Origin: Erythroxylum novogranatense
Lineage: Eukaryota > Streptophyta > Magnoliopsida > Malpighiales > Erythroxylaceae
Assembly: GCA_029891385.1 (NCBI GenBank)
Contig: CM057224.1
Span: forward strand, 29,653,005-29,717,004
DNA: 64,000 bases
Reading direction: 5' to 3'
Under the pieces are notes generated by a model. The model was given only the letters and a program-made list of their open reading frames with translations. It searched no databases and was not told the DNA's origin. Shown one piece after another: positions 1 to 54,917 of the stretch (position 1 is the stretch's first letter; each line of letters opens with the position of its first letter). The position numbers and the translations under genes are program-made.

Positions 1-2874
1 ACCTCTATAGGTCCCCAATTAAACAAAACAGTGATTAAAGGCTCCGTTACCCGGGGTCACGTCAATTTTCCGTCCAAAAATTCCCAATTTCTCACAAAAT
101 GAAATTAAAGGTTCTACGAATCCGATGCCTCAAGAATCAGGTCAATCGGACGTCGGACGGAAAAGAAATTGACAAAAGAAACAATTAGGTCATTTAATGC
201 CAAATAATTAAAATAATAATAATAATAAAATCTGCTTTGCCTCATTGGGCGAGGCGTCGCCCTAGTGAGGCTGGCTCACTTCACTTCATCGCTAGGGCGA
301 CGCGTCGCCCTAGCGACCGGGCCATCCTACCTCGCCTCATTGAGGCGGCGTCGCCAATGGACCCATGAGGTTCTACTCCCTTTCTTTTTCCTATTTCCAA
401 TCCGAATTTCCAACACCCATAACTCTTTGCACACAAATCGAAAAAATACAACCATAGCTTGTTGGAAAGATCATGAAAAGTTCTACCATTCTCATGAAGA
501 CCATAAAAATCAATTTCACCCCTAAGGGTGCCAAAAATCCAACCAAACCTACTGCCCACTCAAAACCTATCAAAACAGGGCAGTACATTGCAAATTCAGT
601 AACTACTCATTTCCTCAGTCAAAAATAACACAATAAATATGTTCAGAAAGTTCACAATGTTATCTAAAACTTTCATGAACAACCCAAAATCAGATTCACT
701 TGTTAACAATGTCAAACAATTCACCAAAGCATCAACCCTCTGAAATCAACCAATCTGGACAGTAATTTTCCAAACAGCATATCTCTTAGCAAAAAAGTCA
801 AAAAATTCACTACCTTATATCCCTGAAAATTTAAGATCTCAAACTTCAATTTTCATGAAGAACTCAAACTCCAATTCGATTTCTAAAAATTTCAAAACTG
901 TTATGGAAGCTACTGTCATGATCAGCCATTCACAACCTAGTTTAGGTTCAGTTTTTACAAAATCATACCTCCCAACTCTGACCTCTAAAAATTACACACC
1001 ATATATCATTTTCAAGATAATTTCTTCCTATACAACTTTGTAGAAGATCACTCACATCAATTCCGTTCACATAATTTTCTAAAATTGCTTCCAATCCTCA
1101 AGCTCACAAACTCAACACTTAGGCTAGCTTTCATCAAAATGCTCAAAACCAGTCAATAGTAATCAGTTCATATCTCCCAATATACAACTCGAAATTTAGC
1201 AAGATCAGTGGAAATGGAAAGATAACTCAATATTCTACAACTTACATGAATACCATTTTCCCAAATTCCATCTCAATTAATTTAGAAAAATCAGCAAAAT
1301 AATCAGGCCATATATGCGGGTACTGTTCACAGACCCTACAAACAGAGACTTTCCATGCAAAGATTCACCCTTCTAACATTACAATTTAACATCACCTATT
1401 TCACACAAAGTTGAAGCCAACATCCCAAAGTTTCATTGGGCACAAACCTCACCTCATTTTCTCACCTACACAATTAGTTATGATCAACACATTACAATAG
1501 GTCAAAGATTCATTTTCCAGCTTTCAACATTAACCTAACTCCTATCACTTCTAATATCAATAACACATCACTAAGCATCCACTTAAACCTCTAATTCAGC
1601 CACAAACTTATCACAACATATACTTATATGATTATACAAAAGTTGGCAGCACCCTCACAACACCACTTCCATACTTTATTTACATTTATCTAACATCATA
1701 ACATCATTAACAACATGTAAATTCACAAGCTTCACTACTCTATCCTCTTCCCTCACTCAAGCATGCATTAAACCCATTCAAACCTACCCTTATCATCATG
1801 AAATAAATGCATAAGTTCTTCCCTTAAATGCTTCAAACTACTAATTCATGCATTAAATGAATGGTCAAAGCTTAAAACATAATCTTACTTAGTCAAGCTT
1901 TCAATCTTTCCCTCAATCTTCCAACTTATTACAACTTCCTAATTCCTCTTCTACTTTCTCCAACACCTACGGCTATCACCCATCACCCTCATCACAAGGC
2001 TTAAGCTTGGTTTGTGTGTGAGTAGAAGCAAGCAAAAAGGCAAGAACATATATATATATATGCAAGACCAACAAAGGAATGGAAGAAGGAGGAGGTTTCG
2101 GATGAGAAGGAAGAATAGCCTTCAAAGTGAATTTTTTAACCATTTCAAGGAGGAGAGTCGTGGATGATGATGAAAGAAGAAGACAAAACCAATTAATTAA
2201 AAAGGGACACTTGGCTTTTAATGAGAAAAAGCCAAAAATTCAAGTTAATCCTATTTAATAATAATAAAACAAAACATAATCCCACTTAATCTTTCATCCC
2301 ACTAATGCTAATGGCTCTCTAACAATTCTCAAAATAATATATCCAAAATGACAGTACCATTTGGTCGCAATTTTCGCTACCGAAAATCGATCGGTTCGTC
2401 ACTTGGCGATTTTTTTTCGGTCCGGGAATTTCCCCGAATCATGTTTTTGAAAATTACCTAAATTGTCCAAAATTGTAAAACATATGACAGTCCACTCCCA
2501 ATAATTGTTCAAACTCGAAAACCACATTTTCCACAACAAAAACACATTTAGGCCATTTACCGGCGATTTTGCCAGCCCGGGAATTTTCTCCGGATTATTC
2601 CAGAAAAATTCCCATAAATCCCTAAAAATGTAAAACACTCAATGACGCACTCCATATAATTTTCCAAGTACAATAATCCCATAAATTTTACAAAAGATCT
2701 CAATTGGAAACCTAAGCCGGAAAATGTCATGAATGCATGTATACCATGTGCAAGTGCAACAAACCATCAATCATAGAGGCTATATGTTGTATGTGCATGC
2801 CGAGATATAATTTAATACGCCTAACCCGTCCCAATTTACTAAAATACCCTTCCCATCGGAGATGGGATGTTACA
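1..2874 (-). mobile_element. LTR C1, gypsy-type, partial (start lies left of window)
   Basis: The right end reads GGGATGTTACA, the same terminus as solo LTRs C2 and C3, so this is a minus-oriented LTR whose other end is outside the window. The plus strand is C-rich and G-poor, matching minus sense. The flanking text around 120-160 and 400-520 resembles the flanks of the repeat cassette in LTR E. It ends inside the tandem-repeat cassette of B's 5' LTR, so it inserted there; CGGAA at 2875-2879 would be the target duplication, but the partner is not visible. A TATA-like run lies at 2047-2060. Short open frames (for example 855-1043) match no family and look incidental. Confidence 0.75.
233..359. 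repeat. Cassette e: GC-rich palindromic island in LTR C1
   Basis: An abrupt GC- and CpG-rich island in AT-rich surroundings. It contains a perfect 26-bp palindrome at 290-315 (core GGCGACGCGTCGCC), an imperfect inverted repeat with CCTCA/TGAGG arms at 251-271, and GCCTCA-T-TGAGGC near 333-346. The position between conserved LTR flanks matches that of cassette d in LTR E. Confidence 0.8.
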
Positions 2875-3134
2875 CGGAAGAAATGAGACGAAAGAAAATG
2901 AGACGGAAGAAATGAGATGGAAGAAAATGAGACGGAAGAAATGAGATGGAAAAAATGAGACGACAAAAAGTGAGACGCAAGAAGTAAGACGCAAAAAGTG
3001 AGATGCAAAAAGTGAGACGCAAGAAGTAAGATGCAAAAAGTGAGATGCAAGAAGTAAGACACAAAAAGTAAGACCCAAAAAGTGAGACGCAAGAAGTAAG
3101 ACGCAAAAAGTAAGATGCAAGAAAGTAAGATGAT
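2875..3134 (+). repeat. Cassette a: 14-bp tandem repeat in B 5' LTR
   Basis: About 18 tandem copies of a 14-bp unit, first as GAAATGAGACGGAA and then as GTRAGAYGCAARAA. The units vary mostly at one CG/TG position. It is interrupted on the left by the C1 insertion. Confidence 0.85.
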
Positions 3135-10451: not shown

Positions 10452-13400
10452 TGTAACATTCCGTCCAAATATTAAGGGTTAGGATCAAAATTTCGGTACA
10501 TGTGAGCTCAAAGAGAGATTAAGCAAATGGATTTTCTTGCTCATGCATAATGTTAGCATATATGCACATAAATATTAAATCTTTGCACACAGAAAATAAA
10601 TATACATGCATTCATTGACAACATCTGGGTATGATTATTTTTAGATGTGATTTTATTGAAAATGAGAAGTAGTGAGAGTAGAGAGAGTGATCTTGGTATG
10701 AGTTGTGATAAGGAAAGATTTGGAAACAAAATTGGTAGTGATCTGGAAAAATATTCACTAAATATACTTCAATATTTTAGCCATAATGTTTTTTCTTCTG
10801 GTTGTTCAAACGAGATGATTTCTAATTAGGATTAACTTAGAGATATATGGCTACATTTCGTATGAAGACATCGAATCTCAATTCTGTCTTTAAGAGTCTC
10901 ACAATTTGTAATGAAGTGAGAATTAGGTCCAGTACATTAGGAGCTGAATGTAAAATTCATGTTCTAACTTTGAGAAAAAATCTGGATTAATTGAGATAGA
11001 TTTTGGTAAAGTTCATTCATTACAGATGTAGATCTTTCTTTTATCTTTCCAATGGTATATAGTATGAAAATTTTGGACATCGGAGTCAAAAGTTATGATC
11101 CTTATAAGTGGAGACGTTCTGGAGAAGAAAATGAGATGGAAGAAATGAGACGGAAGAAAATGAGAAGGAAGAAATGAGACAGAAGAAAATGAGATGGAGG
11201 AAATGAGACGGAAGAAATGAGACGGCAAAAAGTGAGACGCAAGAAGTGAGACGCAAAAAGTGAGATGCAAAAAATGAGACGCAAGAAGTAAGACGCAAAA
11301 AGTGAGATGCAAGAAGTAAGACGCAAAAAATAAGATGTAAGAAAGTAAAACGATAGGAACTAAGATGAAGTTATTGTACAAAGTAAGACAATTGAGGTCA
11401 AAAACATAGTTGCTTCTTTTGGTCATAACTTCCTCTCTAGACATCCAAATGACTTGGTTCTTAAACCATTGGATTCGTAAGACATTGTTCTACATCTATA
11501 CTAAAAAAAATCATAGTCCCTTGAATCAAATTGAGAAATATTGAGTGAAAAAGTATAACAGGTACAATGAGTGTACCCTTAAATAGTATGAACTGGTGTT
11601 ATTCTACTGAACATACTTTAGTATTTTGATGATATCTTGATCCATAGAGTTTCAAATGAGATGATTTTTTATTTGGAGTAAACTAGAAACATAGGGCTAC
11701 AAATTATATGAAGCAATTAAATTCTGAATCAGAATCTAAAAGTTTCAATTTCTGAATGGAAATCGAGTGTAGAGTACTGTCTCGGAATAAAAGCAGTCCA
11801 GAAATATTTGGAGTATAACTTTCACCTTACTGAACCAAATTGAATGCTTTTGGTGTCATTGGAAACGTAAGACAATATAGAAGAGTTTTTTGGAAGAAAG
11901 TTTTATGTTAGACTATTCAACGGTATTTGGGGCAAGACACTTAAGTATAAAAGACATAAGGCATAAATGGAAGAGCAAATGGGACAATTCTCACCCATTA
12001 AAGGCATAATTGGAAGAAGAAGTGTTGTCTAGCTTACAAATAAAGGAGAAAACGTGAATGAGAAGATTCCAAAAAAAAAAATGAGTGGATGAGAAATGAG
12101 ATAAGAAAGAGAAATGTGGAAAAGAATGAAAGAGAGAAAGAAGAGAAAACAAGCTAGGGTTTTAAATTCTTCATCATCTTCAAGAAAGTTTTTGAAGTTG
12201 ATCAAGAAGAGACAAAGGAAGAGGAAGGAAAGAGCTCAAATTTTAACTAAAGATCTCTTTATTTGGTAAAGAATCAAAGAAACCAAGAGAATCCTATCCA
12301 AGAATAAGGGGAAAGACAATCTTCACTTGGAGTTTTGACAAACAAATTAGGTCAAGTGTCCACATTCAGGCGTGCCCAAAATTTAGAAGCAAATGCTAAT
12401 CTGGAACATACTGTGAGTAGACCTAGATGGTCTCATTCTATTGTTAGTTTTGTTTGTCTTTTCGATATTAATTGAATTCTGAATGTGTTTGATTATGTTG
12501 GGTTCAGGATAGGAGGTCCGATGATTGTGATTGTGATTTGGATATTAAAATGCTAATTGTATGTGAATAAGATGAACTAAGTGCACTGAAGCGTTTGCTA
12601 AGTGAACCCTGAATGTGATATTGCATGCAAGTTAAGTGTGAATTCTTAACTATATGTTGAATTCCGGACTACGGTCCGATGATAAGTGATTATGACTGAA
12701 TAAGAGTATGCAATATAAGTGACGCATTCCATCTCATGAATGCATGAAATATAAAGGCATTATGACTTATGTTGCCGGTATGAAGCGCTTCCACGTAGAG
12801 CTATGCTCCTTGATTCTGTTCTAACTGAGCCTTATGGGCTAGTATTTTGCTATGACTGAGCCCTATGGGCCAATATTTTGTTTTGACTGAGCTTACGGGC
12901 CAGTATTCTGTATATGTGAGTGATAGGCACTCAGTCACAACAATAAGAACGAATGTGAGTCCCATACAAATGGCATATGCATAATATGATTGTTTGAGTG
13001 AATTGAATATGAACGAAAATGTAAAATTCTGTATGCTATGTAATTTATGTATTATGTGAATGGGTGAGTCATCGATGATGGTTAATCATTGAGTTTGCAA
13101 AAATCACCCAAAATTTGTAAATATTTTTTAGAACTTAGAAGAATACCACATCGGGCCAACGAGAGTATACCTACAGCATGCAAGTGAAGAATAGAGGTCG
13201 GGATCAGTTTGCGTCTGCATTGCATTTCTCTAACTATATTGAATTGTTATTTTGCAACTTTTGTATAAATTCGTATCTTGAAATTAACTCAAGTATTTTG
13301 TATTTGTGAAAGGGCCCAATTGTCTATTGAAATTTTATGGATCATATTATGGAATAAAAATTTTTATGAATGAAATGGGCCCAATTTGATTACTGATTTT

Positions 13401-13542
13401 TGTATATTGTGTTTGTGATTTTAAAAAAATTATATACCAATTCTGATTGTTTTAAACACTTTAGCATGTCATCCTCGCGAGACACGGACTCGAATATCAC
13501 CATCGATGTCGGGTTTGGGCCTTGCGGGAGTGGGGTGCTACA
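10452..13542 (+). mobile_element. 3' LTR of element B
   Basis: A 3091-bp LTR from TGTAACATT to GGGGTGCTACA, flanked on the left by the polypurine tract. It is collinear with 2875-5324 with scattered substitutions. It contains cassette a at 11111-11354, a decayed TATA box, a GA-rich leader, hairpin array h near 12820-12915 and the conserved hairpin. The right flank TACAT (13543-13547) would be one copy of the target duplication; the other is outside the window. Confidence 0.88.
11111..11354 (+). repeat. Cassette a: 14-bp tandem repeat in B 3' LTR
   Basis: The same 14-bp repeat as at 2875-3134, bounded by conserved LTR text (TCAAAAGTTATGATC on the left, GAACTAAGATGAAG on the right). LTR H has a different cassette between the same flanks. 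Confidence 0.85.
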
Positions 13543-13717: not shown

Positions 13718-14978
13718 TGTAAACGATCTAGAAGGGGGTTGAATAGATCTTTTCAAGCTTTTTGTAAAATTATACAATAAAATCATAAGTTAATTCACAC
13801 AAAAACAATTTTAAAAAATTTAAATGTAAAGAGTAGGGAAGAAGAGCAAACACTGTTTTTATAGAGGTTCAGTGATAAGACCTACGTCCTCTACCTAAGT
13901 TCCCACTTAGGATTTGGCAAATCACTTTAATACACAATTTTTAATTTAGTGTGAACTCTTACAACACTAATTGATTCCCAACTCATGCTACCTTTTACAA
14001 CCGATTTGTTTTCCGGTACAAATCCTACTAACACCACTTGATTTTCGGCTCAAGCAACCTTTACAATTGATTTGTTTTCCGACACAAATCCTACCTCACA
14101 AGTGATTCTCCTCTAATCACTCAAAAAAGATAATGAGATAAAGAAGAAAGAACAATGCTCAATACATATATGAAAATGAGCTAAGAGCAATATAGAGCCA
14201 GTTTAGAGTTGTTGTCTCTCTTTTGGCTATCTAGACATGTATCTATTTATCCCTTGATCTTCATTAATTTATTTTCAACCTCTTGGAAGATTATAGATGT
14301 TGGAGAGTCTCATAACTGTTGCTGATTATCTTATGGCCGTTGTATGAATATTTCCTTTCCATTTGTGACTAATTGACTTCGTCAGAATCAGTTTGTTGTA
14401 CTCGTAAGTTGACTTGTCGTGGTGTGTAAGTCGACTTGTAATAACAATTTTCGTAAAACTTCATCTCTGCTCTTCTATAAGTCGACTTATGCAGTGTAAG
14501 TCGACTTGTAACCTTCAATAAGTCGACTTATAGTCTATTAGTTGACTTGTGTTGTTCTCAACCTGACAGATCTTGATATATTAGTCGACTTATGATTTAC
14601 TAGTCGATTTATGTTGGCTTCAACAGTTATATTACAGAAAATCTTGATCTTTAATTGTTGGGATACATATCTTTGAAGATCTTTATCCATCATATTCATC
14701 CTTAAATATCTCTAGCACATTTAAGGAAATTTCCATCTTGATTCCACAATGATTAATCTCTTGCCCATCAAAGATTAATGCTTTAAGGAAATTTCCATCT
14801 TGATTCCACAATGATTAATCTCTTACCCATTAAGGATTAATGCTATCTTGATTTGCACAATTCTTTTATTGAATATCAATCCCATAATACCTGAAATAAT
14901 TTCTTAACCAATTCTATACATTTTATTATTATCAAAACATAAGTGGGATTTAATTTGTCAACCATCATTGGTCCAACA
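13718..14978 (-). repeat. Left LTR of S (3' LTR in element sense)
   Basis: 1261 bp, about 60 bp longer than its partner because the segment around 14713-14850 (ATTTCCATCTTGATTCCACA) is tandemly duplicated. Minus-sense TATA-like ATAAATAG at 14243-14250. Confidence 0.88.
14403..14613. repeat. Cassette g: AAGTCGACTT palindromes in S left LTR
   Basis: Eight copies or near-copies of the palindrome AAGTCGACTT or TAGTCGACTT spaced 18-45 bp apart, with variants such as AAGTTGACTT. In element sense they lie upstream of the TATA-like site. Confidence 0.85.
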
Positions 14979-18037: not shown

Positions 18038-19237
18038 TGTAAACGATCTACAAGGGGGGTTGAATAGTTCTTTTAAAGCTTTTTGTAAAATTCTACAATA
18101 AAATCATAAGTTAATTCACACAAAAACAATTTAAACAAATTCAAATGTAAAGAGTAGGGAAGAAGAGCAATCACTATTTTTATAGATGTTCGGTGCTAAG
18201 ACCTACGTCCTCTACCTAAGCTCCCACTTAGGATTTGGCAAACCACTTTACTACATACTTTTTAGTTTAGTGTGAACTCTTACAACACCACTTGATTTCC
18301 AGCTCAAGCTACCTTTTACAACCGATTTGTTTTCCGGTATAAATTCTACCAACACCACTTGATTTCCGGCTCAAGCTACCTTTACAATTGATTTGTCTTC
18401 CGACACAAATCCTACCTCACAAGTGATTCTCCTCTAATCACTCAACACAGATAATGAGATAAAGAAGAAAGAACAATGCTGAATACAGATATGAAAATGA
18501 GCTAAGAGCAATATAGAGCCAGTTTAGAGTTATTGTCTCTCTTTTGGCTATCTAGACATGTATCTATTTATCCCTTGATCTTCATCAATTTATTTTCAGC
18601 CTCTTAGAAGATTATAGACGTTGGAGAGTCCCATAACCTTTGTTGATTATCTTATAGCCGTTGCATGAATATTTCCTTTCCATTTGTGACTAATTGACTT
18701 CTTCAGAATCAGTTTGCTGTACTCGTAAGTCGACTTGTTGTGGTGTGTAAGTAGACTTGTAACAACGATTGTCATAAAACTTTATCTCCGCTTTTCTATA
18801 AGTCGACTTATGCAGTGTAAGTCAACTTGTAAACTTCGATAAGTCGACTTATAGTCTATTAGTCGACTTGTGTTATTCTCAACCTGACAGATCTTGATAT
18901 ATTAGTCGACTTATGATTTACTAGTCGATTTATGTTGGCTTCAACGGTTATATTGCAGAAAATCTTGATCTTTAATTGTTGGGATACATATCTTTGAAGA
19001 TCTTTATCCATAATCTTCATCCTTGAATATCTCTAGCACATTTAAGGAAATTTTCATCTTGATTTCACAATGATTAATATCTTACCCATCAAGGATTAAT
19101 GCTATCTTGATTTGCACAATTCTTTTATTGAATATCAATCCCATAATACCTTAAATGATTTCTTAACCAATTCTATACAATTTATTATTATCAAAACATA
19201 AGTGAGATTTAATTTTTCAACCACCATTGGTCCAACA
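18038..19237 (-). repeat. Right LTR of S (5' LTR in element sense)
   Basis: 1200 bp, collinear with the left LTR with a few percent substitutions and without the internal duplication. Bounded by the primer-binding site and the CACCT duplication. Confidence 0.88.
18723..18932. repeat. Cassette g in S right LTR
   Basis: The same series of AAGTCGACTT-type palindromes as in the left LTR, with independent point changes (for example AAGTAGACTT, AAGTCAACTT). Confidence 0.85.
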
Positions 19238-19242
19238 CACCT

Positions 19243-20787
19243 TGATTTCCTTACTTATAGACTTGATCAAAAAGCCTCTTCTCTTGTTCCTTTTTTCTTA
19301 AGTTTTCAATAACACCAAAATCAATCCATTTGGTTCAGTAGTGTGAAAGTTATACTCCAATATCTCCGGACTACTTTTATTCCGAGACAATACTTTATAC
19401 TCAACTTTCATCTAAAACTTGAAACTCTTAGAGTCCGATTCAGAATTTGATTTCTTCATATAATTTGTATCCCTATGTTTCTAGTTTACTCCAAATCAAA
19501 ATTCATATCATTTGGAACTCTACGTATCAAGATATCATCAAAATATTGAAGTATGTTCAGTAGAATAACACCAGTTCATACTATTTAAGGGTACACTCAC
19601 TGTACCTGTGCTACTTTTTCCCTCAATCTTTCTTAATTTGATTCAGAGAGCTATGATTTCTGGTAACGATGTAGAGCAATATCTTACGAATCCAATGTTT
19701 TAAGAACTAGATCATTTGGATGTCTAGAGAGGAAGTTATGACTAAAAGAAGCAACTATGTTTATGACCTCAATCATCTTACTTTGCTTCGTCTTACATGA
19801 ACAGTAACATCGTCTTAGATGAATAGTAACATCATCTTAGATGAACAGCAACTAAGACAATGTTTTCTTCCTTCTTTCTTTAGCATCGTCTTAGATGAAG
19901 AGTAACATCATCTTAGATGAATAGTATCTAAAACAATGTTTTTTTTCTTTTTTCTTTTGCATCGTCTTAGATGAACAGTAACATCTTCTTAAATGAACAG
20001 TAACTAAGACAATGTTTTCTTCATTCTTTCTTTTGCATCATCTTAGATGAACAATAACATCATCTTAGATGAACAATAACTAAGACAATGTTCTCTTCCT
20101 TCTTTCTTTTGCATCGTCTTAGATGAACAGTAACATCGTCTTAGATGAACAGTAACTAAGCAATGTTTTCTTCCTTCTTTCTTTTGTATCTCCTTTTATA
20201 AAGATCATAACTTTTGACTCAGATGCACAAAATTTTCATACTATATACCGTTGGAAATATAAAAGAAAACTATAAAATTATCAGGAAAGAAAATTTGCCA
20301 AAATATATCTAGATCAATCCCAAATTTGCCCCTAAATTCTGAAGACAAAATTTACATTCATCCATTAATGTACTGGACCCAATTCTCATTTCATGACAAA
20401 TTTTGAGATTCTTAGAGACATAATTGAAATTTAATGTCTTCATAAAAAATGTATCCATATATCTCTAGTTTAATCCAAATTAAGAATCATCTCATTTGGA
20501 CAACTAGAAAAACTGTTGTGACTAAATGACTGAAACATACTCAGTGAACATTTTCCAGATCAACTATCAATTTGTTTCAAAATCTTCCCTTAATACAACT
20601 CATACCAAGATCACCTTTTTCTACTGTATTTTCCCTTCATTCTCAAATTCATTTCAAATCAATGTCCTCCATAAAGAAAAATTATAATCCATGACTAATC
20701 ATGAACACCATTAGCAGAACATACACATATATACCTATTTTTTTCATCAATTTACTACACAAATATTGCTTTCATTTTACTGCTAAC
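19243..20787 (-). mobile_element. LTR H, right piece, truncated, relative of LTR B
   Basis: The reverse complement is collinear with LTR B on both sides of its cassette. Examples are 19320-19640 with about 3350-3620, and 20200-20700 with about 10640-11100. Between those flanks it carries cassette b rather than cassette a. The LTR terminus is missing; the sequence changes at about 20788 into D interior. Both B (at 13543) and S inserted into this LTR. Confidence 0.75.
19795..20188 (-). repeat. Cassette b: CATCGTCTTAGATGAACAG repeats in LTR H
   Basis: About ten copies of a 22-bp unit (CATCGTCTTAGATGAACAG plus TAA), mostly in pairs separated by CTAAGACAATGTTTTCTTCC-type spacers, giving a higher-order period near 76 bp. 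The phrase ATGAACAGTAACATCGTC also occurs in cassette d of LTR E. Confidence 0.85.
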
Positions 20788-21098: not shown

Positions 21099-22435
21099 TG
21101 ATGAACGTTGTTGAATGTAAGAAATCTTATGAATTGGGGTTAATGTGAAGAGTAAAAATGAAATGAAGTTGAAATATGACTCATCATGGATGAGCTTAGA
21201 TTGAAATTAAGTAGAATGGAAGAAGTAAATCAATTGAATTAAGGGATTTGAATAGGAGTTGCCTTTGCTTGGAATTGAAATGTTATGGTAAAGAGGGATT
21301 GAAAATTGATATGAATGTGTAGTTTTGATGAAGCAATTGAGAGAAGATTTGAGAAATTGATGAAATAAGATTGATGGTTGAGTTACTAGGAAGTGATTTT
21401 GCATGATAACAAATGAAAATTATAAAGTGTATAGGTATATATGGTGTTAGGATGAAGTTTGAAGCATTGGAGATGCTTGAAAGAAGGTTTGGGACACATT
21501 GCCCCGTATGTGTCCGTTAAACGGACATACAAGTCCGTTTAACGGACCTTCTTTGATGGTTTTGGACACTTTGGGCAGTGTGTGTCCGTTAAACGGACAT
21601 GGATGTCCGTTTAACGGACTGTCTCGGGTGAAAATGGACAGTTTGGCCAGTCCATGTCCGTTAAACGGACAGCCTCGGGTCAACTTTAGTAGTTTTCATT
21701 TTTTACCTGTTTTGAAGCCGAATCTAGTTTTAAGGCCTCTAATACAGGTTGTAGATCTTGATGTTATCTTTCTAATGGAATAAGAACGAAGGCATTTGGA
21801 TATTTGTAGAAAACGTTATGGCAATTGCGCCAAAGTATGTTCAAATTGATTTTGGGGAATGAACATGGTATACTTTTTTGATCATAACTCCCTCATCAGA
21901 CCTCCAATTGAGGTGATTCTTAAGGAAATGGTTTTTTAATACATGTAGCTACCTCTCCATAAAATTTTGTAGCATTTGGAGATCATTTGAGAAAATTTGT
22001 ATTAAAGCAAGTAAGAGGTTAGTTAGGAGAGCATGATTAGGGTTTGTGCACGTTTTAGTATTTTGATGATATCCTGAGCTATAAAGCTCCAATTGAAGTG
22101 ATTCTTGCTTTAAAACGAACAAGAGATATATAGCTATGATTTTTACGAAGAAGTCAAAAAGAATTAAAGATGTTAAGTCTTCCAAATTCTGTGCACAAAT
22201 AGGAGAAATGAGGTTAAGCATAGTGACTGTTTTGTTTGGGCACACCATGGAAGATATTGTAAGTGAATTTTGGATTGTTATAAGCATGAAGATAAATTGA
22301 TGTTGTCTAAATGGATTAAGAATGAAAAAAAAATTAGCCCTCCAAGGTTATGTTCACACTCCCGTTTCATGATCCAGAATAAGCAAGGCTTCATAAGTGA
22401 GCAAGAGAGTTGGGTTCCGGTAACGGGATCCAACA
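21099..22435 (+). mobile_element. LTR1 of array D, 3' part only
   Basis: Collinear with 39934-41270 (LTR2) and about 50115-51474 (LTR3). Ends GGTAACGGGATCCAACA and is followed by a primer-binding site. The first ~2.4 kb, including TATA box and leader, are missing. Confidence 0.85.
21508..21672. repeat. Cassette c: GTCCGTTAAACGGAC palindromes in D LTR1
   Basis: Each unit pairs GTCCGTTAAACGGAC with its reverse complement GTCCGTTTAACGGAC across a six- or seven-base AT-containing spacer. There are two full units and one half unit here. Confidence 0.9.
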
Positions 22436-27890: not shown

Positions 27891-30800
27891 TGTCGGACCC
27901 TGTTCCCAGAGCCCAATTTCCGTAGTCCTGAAACCTTGTGCTTATTACATTGCAGTGCTATATGGTGTTGTTGCATAAAAATGATGAGCGCACACCACCT
28001 AAACATCAAAATCACATATTGACTTGTTCATATCAATTATAGCTTAAAGCCTCACGTTCGTATAGAGGTAAGAGTCACCTTAATCGGAGTTATATAACTC
28101 AAGATACACTCCAAAAACCTAAAAGAGTTCATACCTGAAATATGCTCACTTAACTGACCCCTCACTTACTTTAATGTAAAATTCCTTATTTCATCTCCAA
28201 ATGATACCAAACTTTATGGAGTGGAAGGTATATGTCTCAGGAATGTATTGGTTAATTCTCACCTCAATTGAAGGTCGGATGAGGGAATTATGCCCAAAAG
28301 GGTGGACTATGTTCACACCCAAAATCGAATTGAAACTGTCTTGGAGAGATTGCCATAACTTTTCATATGGATGTTGGATTAAGTTCGTTCTTTGACGATT
28401 AGAAAGAAGACATCTATACCTACAACTCTCATGAAGACCACAAAATGATATTCAGCCTCTAAATAAGTCAACAATCACCATTTTCCCGTGGCTATCTGTT
28501 AAACGGACACACATGTCCGTTCAACGGACACGTTCGGGTGAAAGTGTCCCAAATGCTTCGAGATTGTCCGTTAAACGGACATGCAAGTCCGTTTAACGGA
28601 AATGGGCAGGCGAAAGAGTGTTTTTGTACCCAAGGCTATCCATTTAACGGACATTCATGTCCGTTTAACGGACATCGAGTTTTCCAAAACTCCAAAGCCT
28701 CTCATCTCCAACCCAACTTCAAAACCACTTGCAACTATCACCTTTCAAAACTCATAACTTCTTATTCCTAGCTCCAACATGTGCATATTATACCTCCATG
28801 GAAAGATAACAAGATGAACTACAAATCTCATGAAGGATGCAAAAGTTAACTCCATCATTTATCAAGGTAAAAACTCATTCGAATGCACTGCTCTGACAAT
28901 GACCAATGAAACAGTGGAAAGGCTACATGAACAATAACTGATATAGGTTTTACCCCCATAAGTTTTTACACCTAACTCCAAATGAGGAAAATTATACACC
29001 ATTTGAAAGGTCTAATCTTAAGCGACAATCTTTAAGAAGATCCCTCAATTCAATTCAAACTCTAAGAGAGTCTAAATCACCAACAAAGGTTTGTCAAATT
29101 TTGCCAAAAATTTGACAGCACCTCCTTTAAAAGTTCACTATCCAAACTTCAATTCAATTTAATTCAACTCAAGTACCTGCATCAAAACCTCTATCTTCAA
29201 TCTCTCACAACACACACCAATCCAAATATCCCAAAAGATCACTTCAATAGCAACAACACACTCCTAGCATTCTAATCATATCCAAACTATAGCACAATTA
29301 CATTTCCCCCTTTCTTGTCAAATTCAAACCATACAATGATGCAATTGTTTTAAAAAATGCATGAATTGTACAAAATACATTAGACCTGAACATTCTTGCA
29401 TTCATATGAAAATACGAGTTATTACAAGGCTTTAGAGGGCATTTTAAGCCACTACCTCGAATCCAAAATACAAACTTGCAAAAGCATAATTTGCCTAAAA
29501 TGCATCTAAAGCATTGATTTAAAAAATTTAACTTGAAATACAAAAATTATCCATTTCTGGAGTAATGCCTTTAAGCTCGATGGTCGATCTCGTGCTCCTC
29601 ACATGGAGATGGGACGGAATTGGAGGGGGTGAGCTTACGCTCGTGGGTAACATGTTTATATTTATGCAAATAAGCTGAATTTATTTCATTATCCATACTG
29701 CTAGCAAAATCTCTCATCAAACAATCATACAACTTTGCATTTCATCAATTCATCAAGCTAAAAGCATAACTTTCATGATTCATGTGTCTATCATTCTTGC
29801 AAATACATGCTAACACATAAACACATAGCTAATGGTTCGGTAAGATAAGTCCACAATAACTGGCGAACTACACAAGTGTAGTCGTATCTTTGAGGAGTCC
29901 AAAAGGAACATCCTCGCCACAATCGGCGGTAGTGAAGCCTATCTTGTCAACGTGCGTGACTCTGCTGGGTGGACTTAATTACCCACATAACATGAATTCA
30001 TGCATCAAAATCTGGATTTTTCTTGTCCACTGACTGATTTCTGAAAATGGATTTTTCATGCATCCAAATAACTGATTTTTGAAAAATGTATTTCATGCTT
30101 AACTCACATTTTATGATTTCACTAATATTCATGCTCATTCAATTCATGAACTTGTCAAACAATATCAAGCAATGTTATATACTGTTCAAACTTTCACATA
30201 ATGGCAATCATAAATCAATTTATACACAATCAAAACTCAATCAATGCTCATCCCAAGGTAGTTGGAAAACATTAATTTCATTAGTTGAGATAGTATTTAA
30301 AACTTACTAACATAAAGATAAAAATGAAACCCACCTTATATCTTGCTTAATCCTTGCTTAGGAGTGCTCTTCTCCTTGCTCTTCTCCTCTCTCTTGCTCT
30401 ACTTCAAAAGAAACAGAAACCCATTTCAACATAACTTCAATTGAAAATCTACATAACCTCTTACATGAAATTAACTTCAAAATCACTAAACCTACTTCAT
30501 TTCTAAGCTTTCTACACCATAACCTAACTAAAAGCTAACACTTGAAATCATGACTTACCTTGGTTCTTGACTCAACCAAAGAGTTTCTTGGTTCAAGGTG
30601 TAGCTTAGCTCTTCCTCTACACTTTTCCTTCTTGAACTTTCTTCAAACACTTAATTAATCTCTTGGAAACTCAAGACCTAGCTAAGCTTTTCCTTTTTCT
30701 TCTTCTCCCTTCTCCTTCCACGAATTCTCCCTCTCTCCCTCTAATTTTCGTAATCTTCCTTATCTTCTTCTACTAACCCACTTAATTCCTTCTCTTTTAT

Positions 30801-36025: not shown

Positions 36026-39000
36026 TGTCGGACCCCGTTCCCAGAGCTCAACTTCCGTAGTCCTGAAACCTTGCGCTTATTACATTGCAGTGCTATATGC
36101 TGTTGTTTCATAAAAATGATGAGCGCACACCACCTAAACATCAAAATCACATATTAACTTGTTCATATCAATTATAGCTTAAAGCCTCACGTTCGTATAG
36201 AGGCAAGATTCACCTTAATTGAAGTTATATAACTCAAGATACACTCCAAAAACCTAAAAGAGTTCATACCTGAAACATGCTCTCTTAACGGACCCCTCAC
36301 TTACTTTAATGTAAACTACCTTATTTCAACTCCAAATGATACCAAACTTTATTGAGTGGAAGTTATATGTCTTAGGAATCTATTGGTTCAAGTCTCACCT
36401 CAATTGAAGGTCGGATGAGGGAATTATGTCCAAAAGGGTGGACTATGTTCACACCCAAAATTGAATTGAAACTGTCTTGGTGAGATTGCCATAACTTTTC
36501 ATATAGATGCCGGATTAAGTTCGTTCTTTGACGATTAGAACGAAGACATCTAGAACTACAACTCTCATGAAGACCACAAAACGAGATTCGGCCTCTAAAT
36601 AAGTCAAAAAGCACCATTTTCCTGTGGGTGTCCGTTAAACGGACACACATGTCCGTTTAACGGACACGTTCGGGTGAAAGTGTCCCAAATGCTTCGAGAT
36701 TGTCCGTTAAACGGACATGCAAGTCTGTTTAACAGACATGGGCAGGCGAAAGAGTGTTTTTGTACTTGAGGCTGTCCGTTTAACGGACATCAAGTTTTCC
36801 AAAACTCCAAAGCCTCTCATCTCCAACCTAACTTCAAAACCACTTGCAACTATCACCTTTCAAAACTCATAACTTCTTATTCCTAGCTCCAACATGTGCA
36901 TATTATACCTCCATGGAAAGATAACAAGATGAAATATAAATCTCATGAAGGATACAAAAGTTAAGTCCATCATTTATCGAGGTAAAAACTCATTCGAATG
37001 CACTGCTCTGACAATGACCAATGAAACAGTGGAAAGGCTACATGAACCGTAACTGATATAGGTTTTACCCCCATAAGTTTTTACACCTAACTCCAAATGA
37101 GGCAAATTATACACCATTTGAAAGGTCTAATCTTAAGCGAAAATCTTCAAGAAGATCCCTCAATTCAATTCAAACTCTAAGAGAGTTTAAATCACCAACA
37201 AAGGTTTGTCAAATTTTGCCAAAAATTTGACAGCACCTCCTTTAAAAGTTCACTATCCAAACTTCAATTCAATTTAATTCAACTCAAGTACCTGCATCAA
37301 AACCTCTATCTTCAATCTCTCACAACACATACCAATCCAAATATCCCAAAAGATCACTTCAATAGCAACAACACACTCCTAGCATTCTAATCATATCCAA
37401 ACTATAGCACAATTACATTTCCCCCTTTCTTGTCAAATTCAAACCATACAATGATGCAATTATTTTAAAATATGCATGAATTATACAAAATAAATTAGAA
37501 CTGAACATTCTTGCATTCATATGAAAATACGAGTTATTACAAGGCCTTAGAGGGCATTTTAAGCCACTACCTCGAGAATCTAAAATACAAACTTGCAAAA
37601 GCATCATTTGCCCAAAATGCATCTAAAGCATTGATTTACAAAATTTAACTTGAAATACAAAAATTATCTATTTCTGGAGCAATGCCTTTAAGCTCGATGG
37701 TCGATCTCGTGTTCCTCACATGGAGATGGGAAGGAATTGGAGGGGGTGAGCTTACGCTCGTGGGTAACATGTTTATATTTATGCAAATAAGCTGAATTTA
37801 TTTCATATACTGCTAGCAAAATCTCTCATCAAACAATCATACAACTTTGCATTTCATAATCTCATCAAGCTAAAAACATAATTTTCATGATTCATGCGTC
37901 TATCATTCTTGCAAATACATGCTAACACATAAACACACAGCTAATGGTTCGGTAAGATAAGTCCACAATAACTGACGAACTACACAAGTGTAGTCGTATG
38001 CTGAGGAGTCCGAAAAGGAACATCCTTGCCGCAATCGGGCAGGCGGGCGAAGCCTATACTGGTCAACGTGCACGTGACTCTGCTGGGTGGACTTAATTAC
38101 CCACATAACATGAATTCATGCATCAAAATCTGGACTTTTCTTGTCCACTGACTGATTTCTGAAAATGGATTTTTCATGCATCCAAATAGCTGATTTTTGA
38201 AAAATGTATTTCATGCTTAACTCACATTTTATGATTTCACTAATATTCATGCTCATTCAATTCATGAACTTGTCAAGCAATATCAAGCAATGTTATATAC
38301 TATTCAAACTTTCACATAATGGCAATCATAAATCAATTTATACACAATCAAAGCTCAATCAATGCTCATCCCAAGGTAGTTGGAAAAAATTAATTTCATT
38401 AGTTGAGATAGTATTTAAAACTTACAAACATAAAGATAAAAATGAAACCCACCTTATATCTTGCTTAATCCTTGCTTAGGAGTTCTCTTCTTCTTGCTCT
38501 TCTCCTCTCTCTTGCTCTACTTCAAAAGAAACAAAAACCCATTTTAAAATAACTTCAATTGAAAATCTACATAACCTCTTACATGAAATTAACTTCAAAA
38601 TCACTAAACCCACTTCATTTCTAAGCTTTCTACACCATAACCTAACTAAAAACTAACACTTGAAATCATGACTTACCTTGGTTCTTGACTCAACTAAAGA
38701 GTTTCTTGGTTCAAGGTGTATCTTAGCTCTTCCTCTACACTTTTCCTTCTTGAACTTTCTTCAAACACTTACTTAATCTCTTGGAAACTCAAGACCTAGC
38801 CAAGCTTTTCCTTTTTCTTCTTCTCCCGTCTCCTTCCACGAATTCTCCCTCTCTCCCTCTAATTTTCGTAATCTTCCTTCTATTCTTCTACTAACCCACT
38901 TAATTCCATCTCTTTTATACTACTTACTAACTTACTTAAGCCTATAGGCCTAAAGCCCAACTCACTTCTTCTTCCTTCCTTCTTATATTCTCTTTAAACT

Positions 39001-39213: not shown

Positions 39214-41270
39214 CGCCTGCCCGCAAGTGGCAAGGAGTTCCTTTTAGGAATCCTCAAGAATTTACGACTACACAAGGCCATTCTATGGAATTGTGTAGTT
39301 CGTCATGAATTGTGGACTTGCCAAACCATTATGATGTGTTAGATGTTATGTGTTATGTGATTGAATTGTGACAAGTTTATTGCATTCATGGTTTTATGCA
39401 CACAAAAAATTCACGAATGGTGATTTTAAGCATATCACATGAATCTTGAACGAAATATGTGTTTTATTACTCAAAAAGGAAGTTTTCATGATAAAGAACT
39501 TTGCAATAGTTTTTGCTTGTTATTTTAGTTATAAGCATATTACCTACTGAGCTTCCAAGCTCACCCCATTCTTTTCCCCCATCTCCAGGTTTTTTAGCAA
39601 CAAATCAAGTGGAAGTGGATCAAGGCACCAATTGCATGTTTTGGTTGTGTTTGGAAAAATGAATGTAAATAAGGCTTTAGTTATATGTTAAGAATTATTA
39701 GAATGTGTATGTTATGTAATTTGGATATTGATATAGATGTTGTAAATTGGCTTGGAAATGCCAATAAAATTGTAAAAACTCTTGATGCATGATGTTAATG
39801 CAATATGGATTGGCATATGAATATGAATTATGTATTGTGTATGATGATGTGGGTTGAAATTAGATGAAAATGAATAAGGTTATCCTTTTGAGTTAAGGAA
39901 TGACATATTGTTATATATGTAAATGAATGGTTATGATGAACGTTGTTGAATGAAAGAAATCTTATGAATTGGGGTTAATGTGAAGAGTAAAAATGAAATG
40001 AAGTTGAAATATGACTCATCATGGATGAGCTTAGATTGAAATTAAGTAGAATGGAAGAAGTAAATCAATTGAATTAAGGGATTTGAATATGAGTTTCCTT
40101 TGCTTGGAATTGAAATGTTATGGTAAAGAGGGATTGAAAATTGATATGAATGTGTAGTTTTGATGAAGCAATTGAGAGAAGATTTGAGAAATTGATGAAA
40201 TAAGATTGATGGCTGAGTTACTAGGAAGTGATTTTGCATGATAAGAAATGAAAATTATAAAGTGTATAGGTATATATGGTGTTAGGATGAAGTTTGAAGC
40301 ATTGGAGATGCTTGAAAGAAGGTTTGGGACACATTGCCCCGTATGTGTCCGTTAAACGGACATACAAGTCCATTTAACGGACCTTCTCTGATGGTTTTGG
40401 ACACTTTAGGCAGTGTGTGTCCGTTAAACGGACATGGATGTCCGTTTAATGGACTGTCTCGGGTGAAAATGGACAGTTTAGCCAGTCCATGTCCGTTAAA
40501 CGGACAACCTCAGGTCAACTTTAGTAATTTGCGTTTTTGACCAGTTTTGAAGCCAAATCTCATTTTGAGGCCTCTAATACGAGTTGTATATCTCGATGTT
40601 TTCTTTCTAATGGATTAAGAAAGAAGGAATTTGGATATTTGTAGAAAAAGTTATGGCAATCGCGCCAAAGTATGTTCAAATTGATTTTGGGGAATGAACA
40701 TGATATACACTTTTGATCATAACTCCCTCATTAGACCTCCAATTGAGGTGATTCTTGAGGAAATGCTTTTCTAAGACATGTAGCTACCTCTCCATAAAAT
40801 TTTTTAGCATTTGGAGGTGATTTGCGGAAATTTGTATTAGAGCAAGTAAGAGGTCAGTTAGGAGAGCATGATTAGGGTTTGTGCACGTTTTAGCATTTTG
40901 ATGATATCCTGAGCTATAAAGCTCCAATTGAAGTGATTCTTGCTTTAAAACGAACAAGAGATATATAGCTATGATTTCTACGAAGAAGTCAAAAAGAATT
41001 GAAGATGTTAAGTCTTCCAAATTCTGTGCACAAATAGGAGAAATGAGGTTAAGCATAGTGACTGTTTTGTTTGGGCACACCATGGAAGATATTGTAAGTG
41101 AATTTTGGATTGTTATAAGAATGAAGATAAATTGATGATGTCTAAATGGATTAAGATTGAAAAAAAAATTAACCCTTAAAGGTTATGTTCACACTCCCGT
41201 TTCATGATCCAGAATAAGCAAGGCTTCATAAGTGAGCAAGAGAGTTGGGTTCCGATAACGGGATCCAACA
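39214..41270 (+). mobile_element. LTR2 of array D, 3' segment
   Basis: Resumes directly after A; the first five bases (CGCCT) are the duplicated target. Contains an acceptor-like pyrimidine tract CCCCCATCTCCAG|G near 39574-39588, cassette c at 40347-40507 and the terminus GGGATCCAACA. It is followed by the primer-binding site TGGTATCAGAGCA at 41275-41287. Confidence 0.9.
40347..40507. repeat. Cassette c in D LTR2
   Basis: Two full units plus a half unit, sharing the half-unit state with LTR1; point changes such as GTCCATTTAACGGAC. Confidence 0.88.
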
Positions 41271-44196: not shown

Positions 44197-44417
44197 TCGT
44201 TGCGACGTATAATCCATTGTTAAATCATGACGACGTCGTTCTTCTTTCGTCATGACGTGCGGACCAAGCTTTGCTCGTCATGGCAAGACGACTCCACTCG
44301 TCGCGGCGTGCGGCCGATACTCTGCTCTTCGCGGCACACAAATTAAATATTTAATATTTGTCGTGACGTGCACGCTAAGGGGGCTCGCCGCGACGTGTTC
44401 ATCACACGTCATGACGT
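44197..44417. repeat. Cassette f: CGTCATGACG / CGTCGCGACG palindromes
   Basis: Seven or more units such as CGTCATGACGTGCGG, CGTCGCGGCGTGCGG and CGCCGCGACGTG. Perfect CGTCATGACG occurs at 44248-44257 and 44407-44416. An isolated GC-rich patch in AT-rich LTR sequence. Confidence 0.85.
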
Positions 44418-47703: not shown

Positions 47704-50700
47704 ATATCTTTTAGTAAGCTAAGGCTATTAAATGAGGTTTTTTGATGATTATTCATGAGTAAAGAAATTAGGAATTTACGAAATTGACAAGAAATGGAAA
47801 AGATGGTTTAGATACAGGGTGGATTGCATGAGAAATATTAGAAGTGAAAAGCTAGAAAATGTAAGTTCATTGAGCATGTTGTGGTGTTTCAGCCATAAGT
47901 TGATCTATAGTTATCCAAATGAGATGATTCTTGATTTGGATTAAATTAGAGACATAAGGCTACCAGTTGTATGAAGACATTAAGTTCTAATTTGATTGTT
48001 AAGAAGGTCAATTTTAGGACGAAAATCATGTGCAGGAAAATATTTTAATATAAGAACAATATGAAATGTTGGTGAATAACTCTTAGGATATGAAATAAAT
48101 TGAATAATTTTGGGTGTCTTTATGAAATTAAGAAAATGAGGAACAATTGTCTAGAAGGAAGTTCTGTCAAATTCCTTCAATTTCATGATTAGAAAATGTC
48201 TTGATCTTTGGAGAAAATTAAGTATGAATTAAATGAATTTTAATGTCTTACTAAAGTATTTTATGAAATTAATTAGCATGTTAATGGGATTTAATTAACA
48301 TGTTAATTTGACTAAGATCATATGGCATGAATTAAATGTATTAAGGTGGTAAATAGCATTGAGGGCAAAATGGGAAGACAACTTAAGTCATTTGTGTTGC
48401 AAGGCCATTCATTAAGGGCATTATGGGCAAAAGACATGTGGGCTTGGTATATAAGGAATGAGAGTCACGAAAATTAGAAGAAAAAAGAAGAGAAAATAGA
48501 GAAGAGAGGGAGAGATGTGGTGGAGGAGAAGAAGAAAACGAAGATGGAGAGAAAGAAGAGAAGAAGAGAAGGAAATCCAAGAGAAAGGGAAGGAATTTCG
48601 TGGAACAAGGAGTGGAATCAAGCTTTCTAAGGTAAGTTCTCCCACTTTTCAGCTTCTTTGTTGAGAAATGGTTAGGGTTTGTTCATGGAGAAGTTCTAGA
48701 GAGAGAAAGTTAAAAGGAAGAAGAAGATGGTGAAATCCTTTGGAGTTTTGGGTTTCTAAGCTAGATTTGAAGTTTTCTAACCCACATGAACGATGGATGG
48801 GTTAGATTAGAGCTTGATTAGGGTTTATGGAATTTATGTGATAAGTAGGAAAATTTGGGGGTTTTCCAAATCTAATGGAAATTTATAGAATTTTGTTTGT
48901 GTTAAGGCTATTAAAGACCTTTCCAAGGGCAAGAAGAAGGAAGCCATTGATTTTGGATTTCCAAGAACAAGCAAGGATTTTTAAGGTGGCTTTTATGTTT
49001 ATAGTTGAATAATGGGCCATTGATATATTTTCAAAATCAAGAAGATAAATGATTTCAAATTCATTATTTTTAAATGCTTTGAGAAATTTTTACAATTGAT
49101 GCATTTATTGTTTGAATGCTTGAGAACCTCTATGTGAATTTGGTTGAACAAATGATGAAATGATGGATGCTTGTCTTTAGATGAATTGAGAAATGATGAT
49201 GAATTTTCATATGGAATGTTACATGCTCATGAAAGGATTCATGAAAAATTTCATGATTTATGAAAAACAAAAATTCCAAGAGTTTTGCCATTTGGGGCAA
49301 TCATTTTTCAAGAGCATGATTACATGTTATGTGGGTTAGGTATAGTCCACCCAAGAACTGTCGCGTGCATGCTGACCATGAATAGGCTTCTCCCGCCTGC
49401 CCGCAAGTGGCAAGGAGTTCCTTTTAGGACTCCTCAAGATTATACGACTACACAAGGCCATTCTATGGAATTGTGTAGTTCGTCATGAATTGTGGACTTG
49501 CCAAACCATTATGATGTGTTAGATGTTATGTGTTATGTGATTGAATTGTGACAAGTTTACTGCATTCATGGTTTTATGCACACACAAAAAATGCACGAAT
49601 GGTGATTTTAAGCATATGACAAGAATCTTGAAAGAAATATGTGTGTTATTACTCAAAAAGGAAGTTTTCATGATAAAGAACTTTTGAACAGTTTTTGCTT
49701 GTTATTTTAGTTATAAGCATATTACCTACTGAGCTTCCAAGCTCACCCCATTCTTTTCCCCCATCTCTAGGTTTTTTAGCAAGAAATCAAGTGGAAGTGG
49801 ATCAAGGCACCAATTGCATGTTTTGGTTGTGTTTGAAAAAATGAATGTAAATAAGGCTTTAGTTGTATGTTAAGAATTATTGGAATGTGTATGTCATGTA
49901 ATTTGGATATTGATATAGATGTTGTAAATTGGCTTGGAAATGCCAATAAAATTGTAAAAACTCTTGATGCATGATGTTAATGCAATATGGATTGGCATAT
50001 GAATATGAATTATGTATTGTGTATGATGATGTGGGTTGAAATTAGATGCAAATGAATAAGGATATCCTTTTGAGTTAAGGAATGACATATTGTTATATAT
50101 ATAAATGAATGGTTATGATGAACGTTGTTGAATGTAAAAAATCTTATGAATTGGGGTTAATGTGAAGAGTAAAAATGAAATGAAGTTGAAATATGACTCA
50201 TCATGGATGAGCTTCGATTGAAATTAAGTAGAATGGAAGAAGTAAATCAATTGAATTAAGGGATTTGAATATGAGTTGCCTTTGCTTGGAATTGAAATGT
50301 TATGGTAAAGAGGGATTGAAAATTGATATGAATGTGTAGTTTTGATGAAGCAATTGAGAGAAGATTTGAGAAATTGATGAAATAAGATTGATGGTTGAGT
50401 TACTAGGAACTGATTTTGCATGATAAGAAATGACAATTATAAAGTGTATAGGTATATATGGTGTTAGGATGAAGTTTGAAGCATTGGAGATGCTTGAAAG
50501 AAGGTTTGGGACACATTGCCCCGTATGTGTCCGTTAAACGGACATACAAGTCCGTTTAATGGACCTTCTTTGATGGTTTTGGACACTTTGGGCAGTGTGT
50601 GTCCGTTAAACGGACATGGTTGTCCGTTTAACGGACTGTCTCGGGTGAAAATGGATAGTTTGGCCAGTCTATGTCCGTTAAACGGACATGCATGTCTGTT

Positions 50701-51474
50701 TAACGGACAGCCTCGGGTCAACTTTAGTAATTTGCATTTTTGACCAGTTTTGAAGCCGAATCTCGTTTTGAGGCCTCTAATACAAGTTTTAGATCTCGAT
50801 GTTATATTTCTAATGGAATAAGAATGAAGGAATTTGGATATTTTTAGAAAAAGTTATGGCAATCGCGCCAAAGTATGTTCAAATTGATTTTGGGGAATGA
50901 ACATGGTATACTCTTTTGATCATAACTCCCTCATCAGACCTCCAATTGAAGTGATTCTTGAGGAAATGGTTTTCTAAGACATGTAGCTACCTCTCCATAA
51001 AATTTTGTAGCATTTGGAGATGATTTGAGGAAATTTGTATTAGAGCAAGTAAGAGGTCAGTTAGGAGAGCATGATTAGGGTTTGTGGACGTTTTAGCATT
51101 TTGATGATATCCTGAGTTATAAAGCTCCAATTGAAGTGATTCTTGCTTTAAAACGAACAAGAGATATATAGCTATGATTCCTATGAAGAAGTCAAAAAGA
51201 TTTGAAGATGTTAAGTCTTCCAAATTCTATGCACAAATAGGAGAAATGAGGTTAAGCATAGTGACTGTTTTGTTTGGGCACACCATGGAAGATATTGTAA
51301 GTGAATTTTGGATTGTTATAAGCATGAAGATAAATTGATGATGTCTAAATGGATTAAGAATGAAAAAAAAAATTAACCCTCCAAGGTTATGTTCACACTC
51401 CCGTTTCATGATCCAAAATAAGCAAGGCTTCATAAGTGAGCAAGAGAGTTGGGTTCCAGTAACGGGATCCAACA
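47704..51474 (+). mobile_element. LTR3 of array D
   Basis: About 3.77 kb, collinear with LTR2 apart from the missing first bases. TATATAAGG at about 48449, donor-like AAG|GTAAGT at 48631/48632, an unoccupied A target site (CCCGCCTGCCCGC around 49394-49398) and cassette c at 50527-50709. It ends GGTAACGGGATCCAACA at 51474 and lies directly against copia fragment F, so it is the outer right edge of the array. Confidence 0.9.
50527..50709. repeat. Cassette c in D LTR3
   Basis: Three full units, unlike LTR1 and LTR2, which have lost half of the third. Confidence 0.88.
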
Positions 51475-54800: not shown

Positions 54801-54917
54801 AAAAATATTTACATAAACACATAATTAAATCAATTAAGACAAAATAAAATAATTAACGAATAAATCCATAAATAAATAATTAATTAATTCAAATAAAAAA
54901 AAATTTGGGGCCCAACA
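51806..54917 (-). mobile_element. LTR of element E (3' LTR in element sense), chromodomain gypsy
   Basis: TGTTGGACCCCGTC to TTTGGGGCCCAACA, 3112 bp. A polypurine tract (54918-54936, minus) and pol C-terminus follow, which makes it the 3' LTR. TCTTT at 51801-51805 is the likely target copy; the other end is beyond the window. A donor-like AAG|GTAAGT lies on minus with GTAAGT at 54412-54417. The ends and layout resemble A, but the cassette differs. Confidence 0.88.
52381..52785. repeat. Cassette d: CATCGTCTGGTTTTTGC repeats in LTR E
   Basis: About ten copies of a ~24-bp unit (CATCGTCTGGTTTTTGC plus TACAGTG) at 52536-52760. They are preceded by inverted versions (AGACGGAGATGATGTCATCC) and GATGACGTCATC, so the left and right parts face each other. 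Shares ATGAACAGTAACATCGTC with cassette b. Confidence 0.85.

Follow-up and report, generated by a model that had tools for sequence, protein, structure and literature searches.

The window, by which we mean the whole stretch of 64,000 nucleotides analysed, is TE-rich plant-type DNA of ~36% GC that carries genes of gypsy and copia elements together with primer sites of the tRNA type (TGGTATCAGAG). Element T, a gypsy element on the minus strand (27891-39213) with LTRs that are 94.9% identical and a TSD of CGCCT, sits nested within a family c LTR. Pfam searches of T gave matches to RVT_1, gag and SH3_Tf2-1, and thus not to the polymerase of a Ty1/copia element, together with a chromodomain match under the Pfam cut-off (23.8 versus 25.1 bits). 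A chromodomain match, likewise under the cut-off, lies just 5' of the family d LTR, and no Ty1/copia polymerase was found for this family either. We take the lineage of T and d to be Tekay. Families a, b, c and e, for which no coding sequence was seen in the window, are joined to T and d only by the repeated modules described below. Families a to e and T are, or resemble, Ty3/gypsy chromodomain elements.

The family c copies (21096-27890 and 39214-51472) follow the order LTR-internal-LTR-internal-LTR, which looks like the product of unequal recombination. T is inserted in the middle LTR, and the second internal part carries f, a solo LTR (42579-45383) with a TSD of TTATG. Elsewhere LTR e begins inside island a1 (2872-2873), and hence an element has inserted in an island. 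What had been counted as five copies of c are indeed five arrays, but they fall into two related families, one made up of c1, c4 and c5 (without coding sequence here) and the other of T3 and T5.

The original prediction was that nearly every LTR family in this DNA contains one compact island unlike its surroundings, and we found an array at every island that it had listed (Table 1). The c word, GTCCGTTAAACGGAC, gave 51 strand-wise matches in the whole window at up to two mismatches, where 0.01 were expected, and each c or T island holds five or six word positions. At up to one mismatch the g word, AAGTCGACTT, matched 27 times in the window (1.66 expected). That most islands are built from self-complementary words was correct for c, g and e and partly for f and b, but not for a, where palindrome cover was 0.00 in both a1 and a2, and hardly for d, where it was 0.03. 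Given the zero cover in a1 and a2, palindromy was dropped as a universal property of the islands. Palindrome density exceeded the maximum of 30 simulated windows in five of the 15 cassettes (c1, T3, T5, c5 and g3).

The place of the island along its LTR ranges from the first quarter in a2 (~22-29%) through 34-42% in f to the last third in d (69-81%), c (75-80% for c4) and T. The words of b, c and g4 are paired 21-22 bp apart, which is two helix turns (19788-20190, 21512-21670 and 61801-61906, respectively). A protein search with the open frame that spans island c5 gave no match at E 0.001. Resemblances of the words to plant factor sites, AACGG to the MSA core and TGACGTCA to a bZIP site, carry no weight here.

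Table 1 Islands, LTRs and modules in the window. M, module; U, upstream flank.
Feature	Position	Strand	Remarks
Island e	233..359	-	GC-rich; perfect 28-bp palindrome at 289
Sense module 3' of island e	89..190	-	profile seeded with 89..190 itself
Five modules 5' of island e	417..1250	+	antisense to element e
Island a1	2873..3133	+	left side cut by insertion of element e
LTR a2	10452..13541	+	start after PPT-like AGGGGGAGAAT, end GGTGCTACA; pairs with 2873-5323
Flank U of a2	11016..11117	-	antisense module, 7 bp before island; iterated profiles
Island a2	11124..11344	+	14-bp tandem repeat with a core of AGACG; neither palindromes nor RNA structure
Three sense modules 3' of a2	11403..11876	+	11403-11499, 11608-11748, 11815-11876
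Island g1	14403..14613	-	AAGTCGACTT array in Sirevirus-type LTR 13718-14978
Island g2	18723..18932	-	other LTR (ends 19237) of the g1 element; TSD CACCT
Three sense modules 3' of b	19294..19761	-	
Island b	19788..20190	-	76-bp unit, CATCGTCTTAGATG words in pairs at 22 bp; slot shared with a
Flank U of b	20205..20287	+	module antisense to element
Island c1	21508..21672	+	five GTCCGTTAAACGGAC/reverse-complement words, paired at 21 bp; 72-bp unit
Module M 3' of c1	21702..21843	-	antisense to element, directly 3'
Two sense modules M 3' of c1	21862..22185	+	21862-21958, 22045-22185
Island T3	28490..28675	-	c word, six words; one LTR of gypsy element 27891-39213
Two modules 5' of T3	28752..29039	-	28752-28835, 28956-29039; antisense to element
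Island T5	36626..36790	-	c word, five words; other T LTR; one 21-bp unit fewer than T3
Island c4	40343..40507	+	c word, five word positions
Island f	44197..44417	-	CACGTCATGACGTG and relatives, in solo LTR 42579-45383; one 14-bp palindrome
Island c5	50525..50710	+	c word, six words
LTR d	51806..54917	-	directly 3' of chromodomain-coding pol end; ends read
Three sense modules 3' of d	51950..52370	-	
Island d	52401..52785	-	repeats of 33 and 24 bp; AGACG words in either orientation
Flank U of d	52788..52883	+	antisense module, 3 bp from island
Island g3	57118..57182	-	three AAGTCGACTT words, first 70 bp of LTR 55195-57188, different Copia element
Array g4	61682..61906	-	AAGTCGACTT and AAGTCCACTT words, internal 5' part of the g3 element

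Repeated modules around the islands

By searching outward from the stretch 3' of island a2, we found a repeated module whose 145-bp profile gave 31 matches in the window at E 0.001. Three iterated profiles combined gave 44 non-overlapping copies, all 44 of which fall in the roughly 50% of the window that had been classed as LTR sequence, and the ends of the a2 and d LTRs, which were found later, still enclose their module copies. Same-strand neighbours less than 300 bp apart are spaced at 171-207 bp, with a mean of 190 (n = 15, with each sibling LTR counted separately; modules of e, 360 and 391 apart, lie outside this count). The module nearest to the island is 3-58 bp away on the 5' side and 19-59 bp away on the 3' side. 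Profile searches detected no modules in f and g.

The modules switch strand at the island in a, b, d and e, and one module 3' of it in c and T. Read in element orientation, the island of both a2 and b is preceded by a sense and an antisense module and followed by three sense modules; d has one antisense module, the island and three sense modules; and e has five antisense modules, the island and one sense module, after which the window ends. The order in T is two antisense modules, the island, one antisense and two sense modules, and in c it is the island, one antisense and two sense modules. A lone sense module also occurs close to where the c LTR begins at its 5' side, well away from the island (26372-26512 and 47871-48011).

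Direct comparison of the upstream flank with the inverted downstream flank of the same LTR went beyond shuffles in none of 10 LTRs. The best results were those of d (45 of 500 shuffles) and a2 (47 of 500), and the b flanks scored better in direct than in inverted orientation (4 of 200 shuffles). With single-pass profiles the upstream/downstream flank matches also stayed within the range of shuffles: the downstream-flank profile reached the upstream flanks of a2 and d at only 6.4 and 4.4 bits, and the upstream-flank profile reached the downstream flanks of a2 and b at only 7.0 and 5.4 bits. The c and T antisense modules were found by both, at 14.4, 11.8 and 11.3 bits with the downstream-flank profile (best of 20 shuffles, 8.7) and at 10.6 to 18.2 bits with the upstream-flank profile (best shuffle, 11.0). 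Upon iteration at E 0.001, the upstream-flank profile recovered the inverted downstream flanks of a1, a2, b and d at E values of 4e-5 to 1e-14, but not the downstream flank of e. Support for the inversion therefore comes from the iterated profiles, with the clear antisense modules in c and T acting as the bridge.

Islands compared with their flanks

Families a and b are 79% identical over 442 aligned columns of the 5' flank and 87% identical over 497 aligned columns of the 3' flank, but the sequences that lie between these two flanks have nothing in common. Among the six pairs that can be formed from a, b, d and e, the upstream-flank score was matched by 0 of 100 shuffles in five pairs and by 1 of 100 in the sixth; for the downstream flanks no shuffle of 100 matched the score in any of the six. 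The numbers of shuffles (of 100) that matched the cassette scores were 53 for a-b, 2 for a-d, 22 for a-e, 0 for b-d, 26 for b-e and 17 for d-e. Islands b and d, which have a 21-base identical stretch in common, are related, and the other pairs are not clearly so. The expectation that the flanking LTR text is conserved but the word is not was thus confirmed for a, b, d and e, in which flank homology extends beyond shuffles on both sides and the islands differ. The c and T families are ~70-72% identical over the island plus the 3' flank and use the same words. As a and b have close flanks but unrelated islands, and c and T are more distant yet have the same words, flank distance is no guide to word type in the small sample available, and the predicted decoupling of word from flank was upheld.

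Sibling islands record how the arrays change. The islands of T3 and T5, identical at the time of T insertion, have since diverged by one 21-bp word unit and 10 substitutions. This unit is the largest of the eight indels between the two LTRs, the others being 6 bp or less. The pairs c1/c5 and c4/c5 also differ by a 21-bp word unit, which is the largest indel of each pair, and the same sibling comparison gave no unit change of the 21-bp type between the islands of a1/a2, c1/c4 or g1/g2. Substitutions were more frequent in the island than in the flank in four of six sibling pairs (T3/T5, c4/c5, a1/a2 and g1/g2) and fewer in two.

The a and b islands have a common right edge containing AGACG (TAAGACGAAG in a1, GTAAGACGAAG in b). 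AGACG/CGTCT makes up 9 of the 10 CpG contexts of a1, 8 of 8 in a2, 6 of 6 in b and 11 of 20 in d, compared with 18 of 959 elsewhere. The e, c, T and g islands lack it, and f has it once. Since tandem copies do not count as independent, these are three words with a common core and not 34 events. The shared AGACG is consistent with an old site having been re-amplified where it stands, and also with shared descent and shared binding. Taken with the a-b edge and the single 21-bp unit changes, the common core of a, b and d fits re-amplification in place. The cassettes had been called exchangeable, a term that we do not retain given that core and those unit changes, no cassette having been seen to move whole between unrelated frames.

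CpG observed/expected exceeded 1 in 13 of the 15 islands, versus 0.50 elsewhere; the exceptions were b (0.64) and g4 (0.68). In comparisons with random segments of the same length, values of <0.05 were obtained by density for six of 12 islands and by observed/expected for six of 12, and no excess was detected for b and g4.

Family g and known LTR systems

The element that carries g1 and g2 (13718-19237) is of the Sirevirus type. Directly beside its LTR, at 14979 on the + strand, lies CTCCCCCT, which agrees with the Sirevirus PPT AGGGGGAG. With up to one mismatch AAGTCGACTT occurs six times in g1 and seven times in g2, and a multi-copy palindromic LTR motif is therefore present. The PPT AGGGGGAG and the poly-C LTR end identify the array as one of the repeated-motif (RM) box kind, and family g is a Sirevirus. 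In the accessible text of Bousios et al. 2010 (PMC2829016), the RM boxes of Sireviruses are family-specific palindromes that form CpG islands just upstream of a TATA box and have a CGG-CCG core except in Tnd-1, and a regulatory role is suggested for them. Thus, the statement that such islands belong to no named class was mistaken for family g. The g core is GTCGAC and not CGG-CCG, and CTATAAG lies at 581-587 of the 1201 positions of the g LTR, ~66 bp past the array, with other TATAA sites at 286, 385, 622 and 1054. A 263-bp tandem duplication (14979-15516) beside the PPT of this element contains CTCCCCCT twice. Array g4, which was not among the arrays predicted originally, holds four AAGTCCACTT variants ~1.1 kb inside the 5' end of the g3 Copia element; for Sireviruses with an envelope gene, the same accessible text describes extra boxes outside the LTR (PMC2829016).

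The islands found here resemble RM boxes, as described there, in having short family-specific palindromes many times per LTR, CpG islands and highly divergent LTR flanks. However, RM boxes are described from Ty1/copia elements, whereas a to e and T are or resemble Ty3/gypsy chromodomain elements; moreover, the words found here need not be palindromic and their slot is marked by a module frame. In maize, palindrome-rich cis-regions of Sirevirus LTRs are reported to be fast-evolving small-RNA hotspots (PMC5311732, PMC10760457); a study of 2016, as relayed by these two papers, concerns an LTR region like those found here but in Sireviruses only. According to the accessible text of PMC1838419, Tnt1, Retrolyc1 and Retrosol are alike elsewhere but have quite different U3 regulatory regions, which was called modular evolution. 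These are Copia elements for which that text describes no module frame. An array that differs between elements alike elsewhere, as in U3 of the Tnt1 type, is also what a and b present. The crapaud element of Podospora anserina is reported to have diverged variants in one LTR part only, but it is a fungal element (PMC10787394, in the text accessible). Retrosat2 of rice is a gypsy element with an LTR of over 3.2 kb and repeated signals, as seen here, but section 8 of PMC3485330 describes no palindromic or word arrays, and the string 'palindrom' is absent from the main text of that paper. A literature search largely confined to papers free of subscription turned up no account of Ty3/gypsy LTRs in which arrays of this type are set in a frame of modules. 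Palindromic LTR boxes are known from Sireviruses; what is new is the RM-box-like organisation with a module frame in Ty3/gypsy LTRs.

Possible roles of the islands

LTR promoters decide when plant retrotransposons and nearby genes switch on. We consider it about an even chance (probability ~0.5) that the islands are protein-binding, enhancer-like cis-regulatory arrays at a preserved LTR slot that are re-amplified in place. This reading starts from the slot, the modules and their orientation, the decoupling of word and flank, the common core and the 21-bp unit change observed in the window, and would have proteins bind the words and so drive transcription of the element. Each island would be an array of short protein-binding sites. 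Its slot would be set by the repeated modules in a, b, d, e and c/T, which point outward from either side of the island in a, b, d and e and switch strand one module 3' of it in c/T. The array would turn over in place through loss, gain and re-amplification of single word units. The word would accordingly evolve far more rapidly than its frame, but a small core could persist, as AGACG does in a, b and d. Selection, for an expression niche or for escape from silencing, may favour new arrays. The enhancer reading is suggested by CpG words that are clustered at a preserved slot and lineage-specific, with a core that sometimes persists, as in other LTR enhancer arrays, and by the parallel with the Sirevirus RM boxes. 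We infer a U3 position for the islands, for which TATA-like sites are the only start-site markers. Against the enhancer reading we count the differing place of the island in the LTRs of a2, d, c4 and f, the CpG excess in only half of the tested islands, the absence of AGACG from e, c, T and g, the failure of upstream and inverted downstream flanks to resemble each other beyond shuffles on direct comparison, and the lack of a 21-bp-type unit change in a1/a2, c1/c4 and g1/g2.

The original prediction offered two roles, RNA dimerisation or packaging signals like retroviral kissing loops and protein-binding arrays, and on the sequence the latter appears the better. Hairpins for dimerisation or packaging of the genomic RNA are very unlikely to be what the islands provide, even though folding surpasses that of shuffled sequence in 10 of 12 islands (z -2.8 to -12.5) and the c word pairs can form long hairpins. 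Perfect palindromes in DNA also predict good RNA folding, and hence folding alone does not favour an RNA role. Moreover, island a, which occupies the slot of b, d and e, is 80-83% purine and has no fold (z +1.4 and +0.8). It is not the self-complementary foldable loop of a retroviral dimerisation initiation site, although 10 of 12 islands have folding potential. This rules out kissing loops as the general role and leaves clustered short DNA words as the common denominator of the islands. An RNA stem between the upstream and downstream flanks was likewise rejected because these pair no better than shuffled flanks in all four LTRs tested. The fold of 10 of 12 islands bears also on a second RNA reading, in which the host produces siRNAs from, or directs them at, islands that form hairpins, as the maize small-RNA hotspots would suggest (PMC5311732, PMC10760457, in their accessible text). 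We regard this as doubtful, though possible; siRNA production would be a consequence and not a benefit to the element, and island a cannot fold.

Two further readings concern how the islands arise. They could be slippage-prone tandem repeats that grow as minisatellites without function, as their tandem structure, the loss or gain of units and the excess of substitutions over the flank in four of the six sibling pairs (with fewer in the other two) would allow. Neutral growth is nevertheless unlikely given that several families use the same slot, that a, b and d have a core in common, that CpG-rich words stand on a CpG-poor background and that a distant lineage has a like organisation. Alternatively, elements packaged together could have traded islands, through template switching or through recombination at the shared modules, which would supply homologous switch points. 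The failure of word type to track flank distance speaks for trading, as does the AAGTCGACTT word, which the Sirevirus LTR shares with a second Copia element even though BLAST gives no match between the two. However, no island was seen intact in two unrelated frames, the core of a, b and d and the AGACG edge of a and b are held in common, and change unit by unit is seen directly. Since c and T have the 3' flank as well as the words in common, common descent suffices for them and trading is not needed, and we judge it distinctly unlikely as the source of the islands.

Returning to regulatory arrays, a wider reading can be put forward tentatively, as a possibility that we would not yet call probable. 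The LTRs of a group of plant Ty3/gypsy chromodomain elements would form a divergent regulatory unit in which ~190-bp modules read away from a hypervariable recognition slot on both sides and each lineage breeds its own CpG-site array round a small persistent core. The slot would act as a key that can be altered, either to suit the transcription factors of the host or to evade silencing, a solution that Sireviruses would have reached independently. By way of speculation, a module of ~190 bp is close to one nucleosome repeat; the 10-bp AA/TT/TA periodicity of the nucleosome type was sought and rejected, none of six stretches showing it at 5% or better (best 24 of 300). If slot arrays prove general in Ty3/gypsy LTRs and Sireviruses, they would provide a defined place to read which host factors are used, and the slot would let the birth and replacement of regulatory sites be followed and escape from silencing be tested. 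The module frame gives a way to locate the slot in families without common words.

A pattern scan of viral contigs gave no stretches with the paired c word and none with the module piece. The paired g word was found in one stretch, apparently a repeat within a reading frame, and the single c word in 15. Of the matches inspected (that of the paired g word and one of the 15, in contig L006), none was recognised as a plant LTR. The L006 stretch (8572-8641), which is probably unrelated, has three copies of GTCCGTTAAACGGAC with starts 33 and 22 bp apart.
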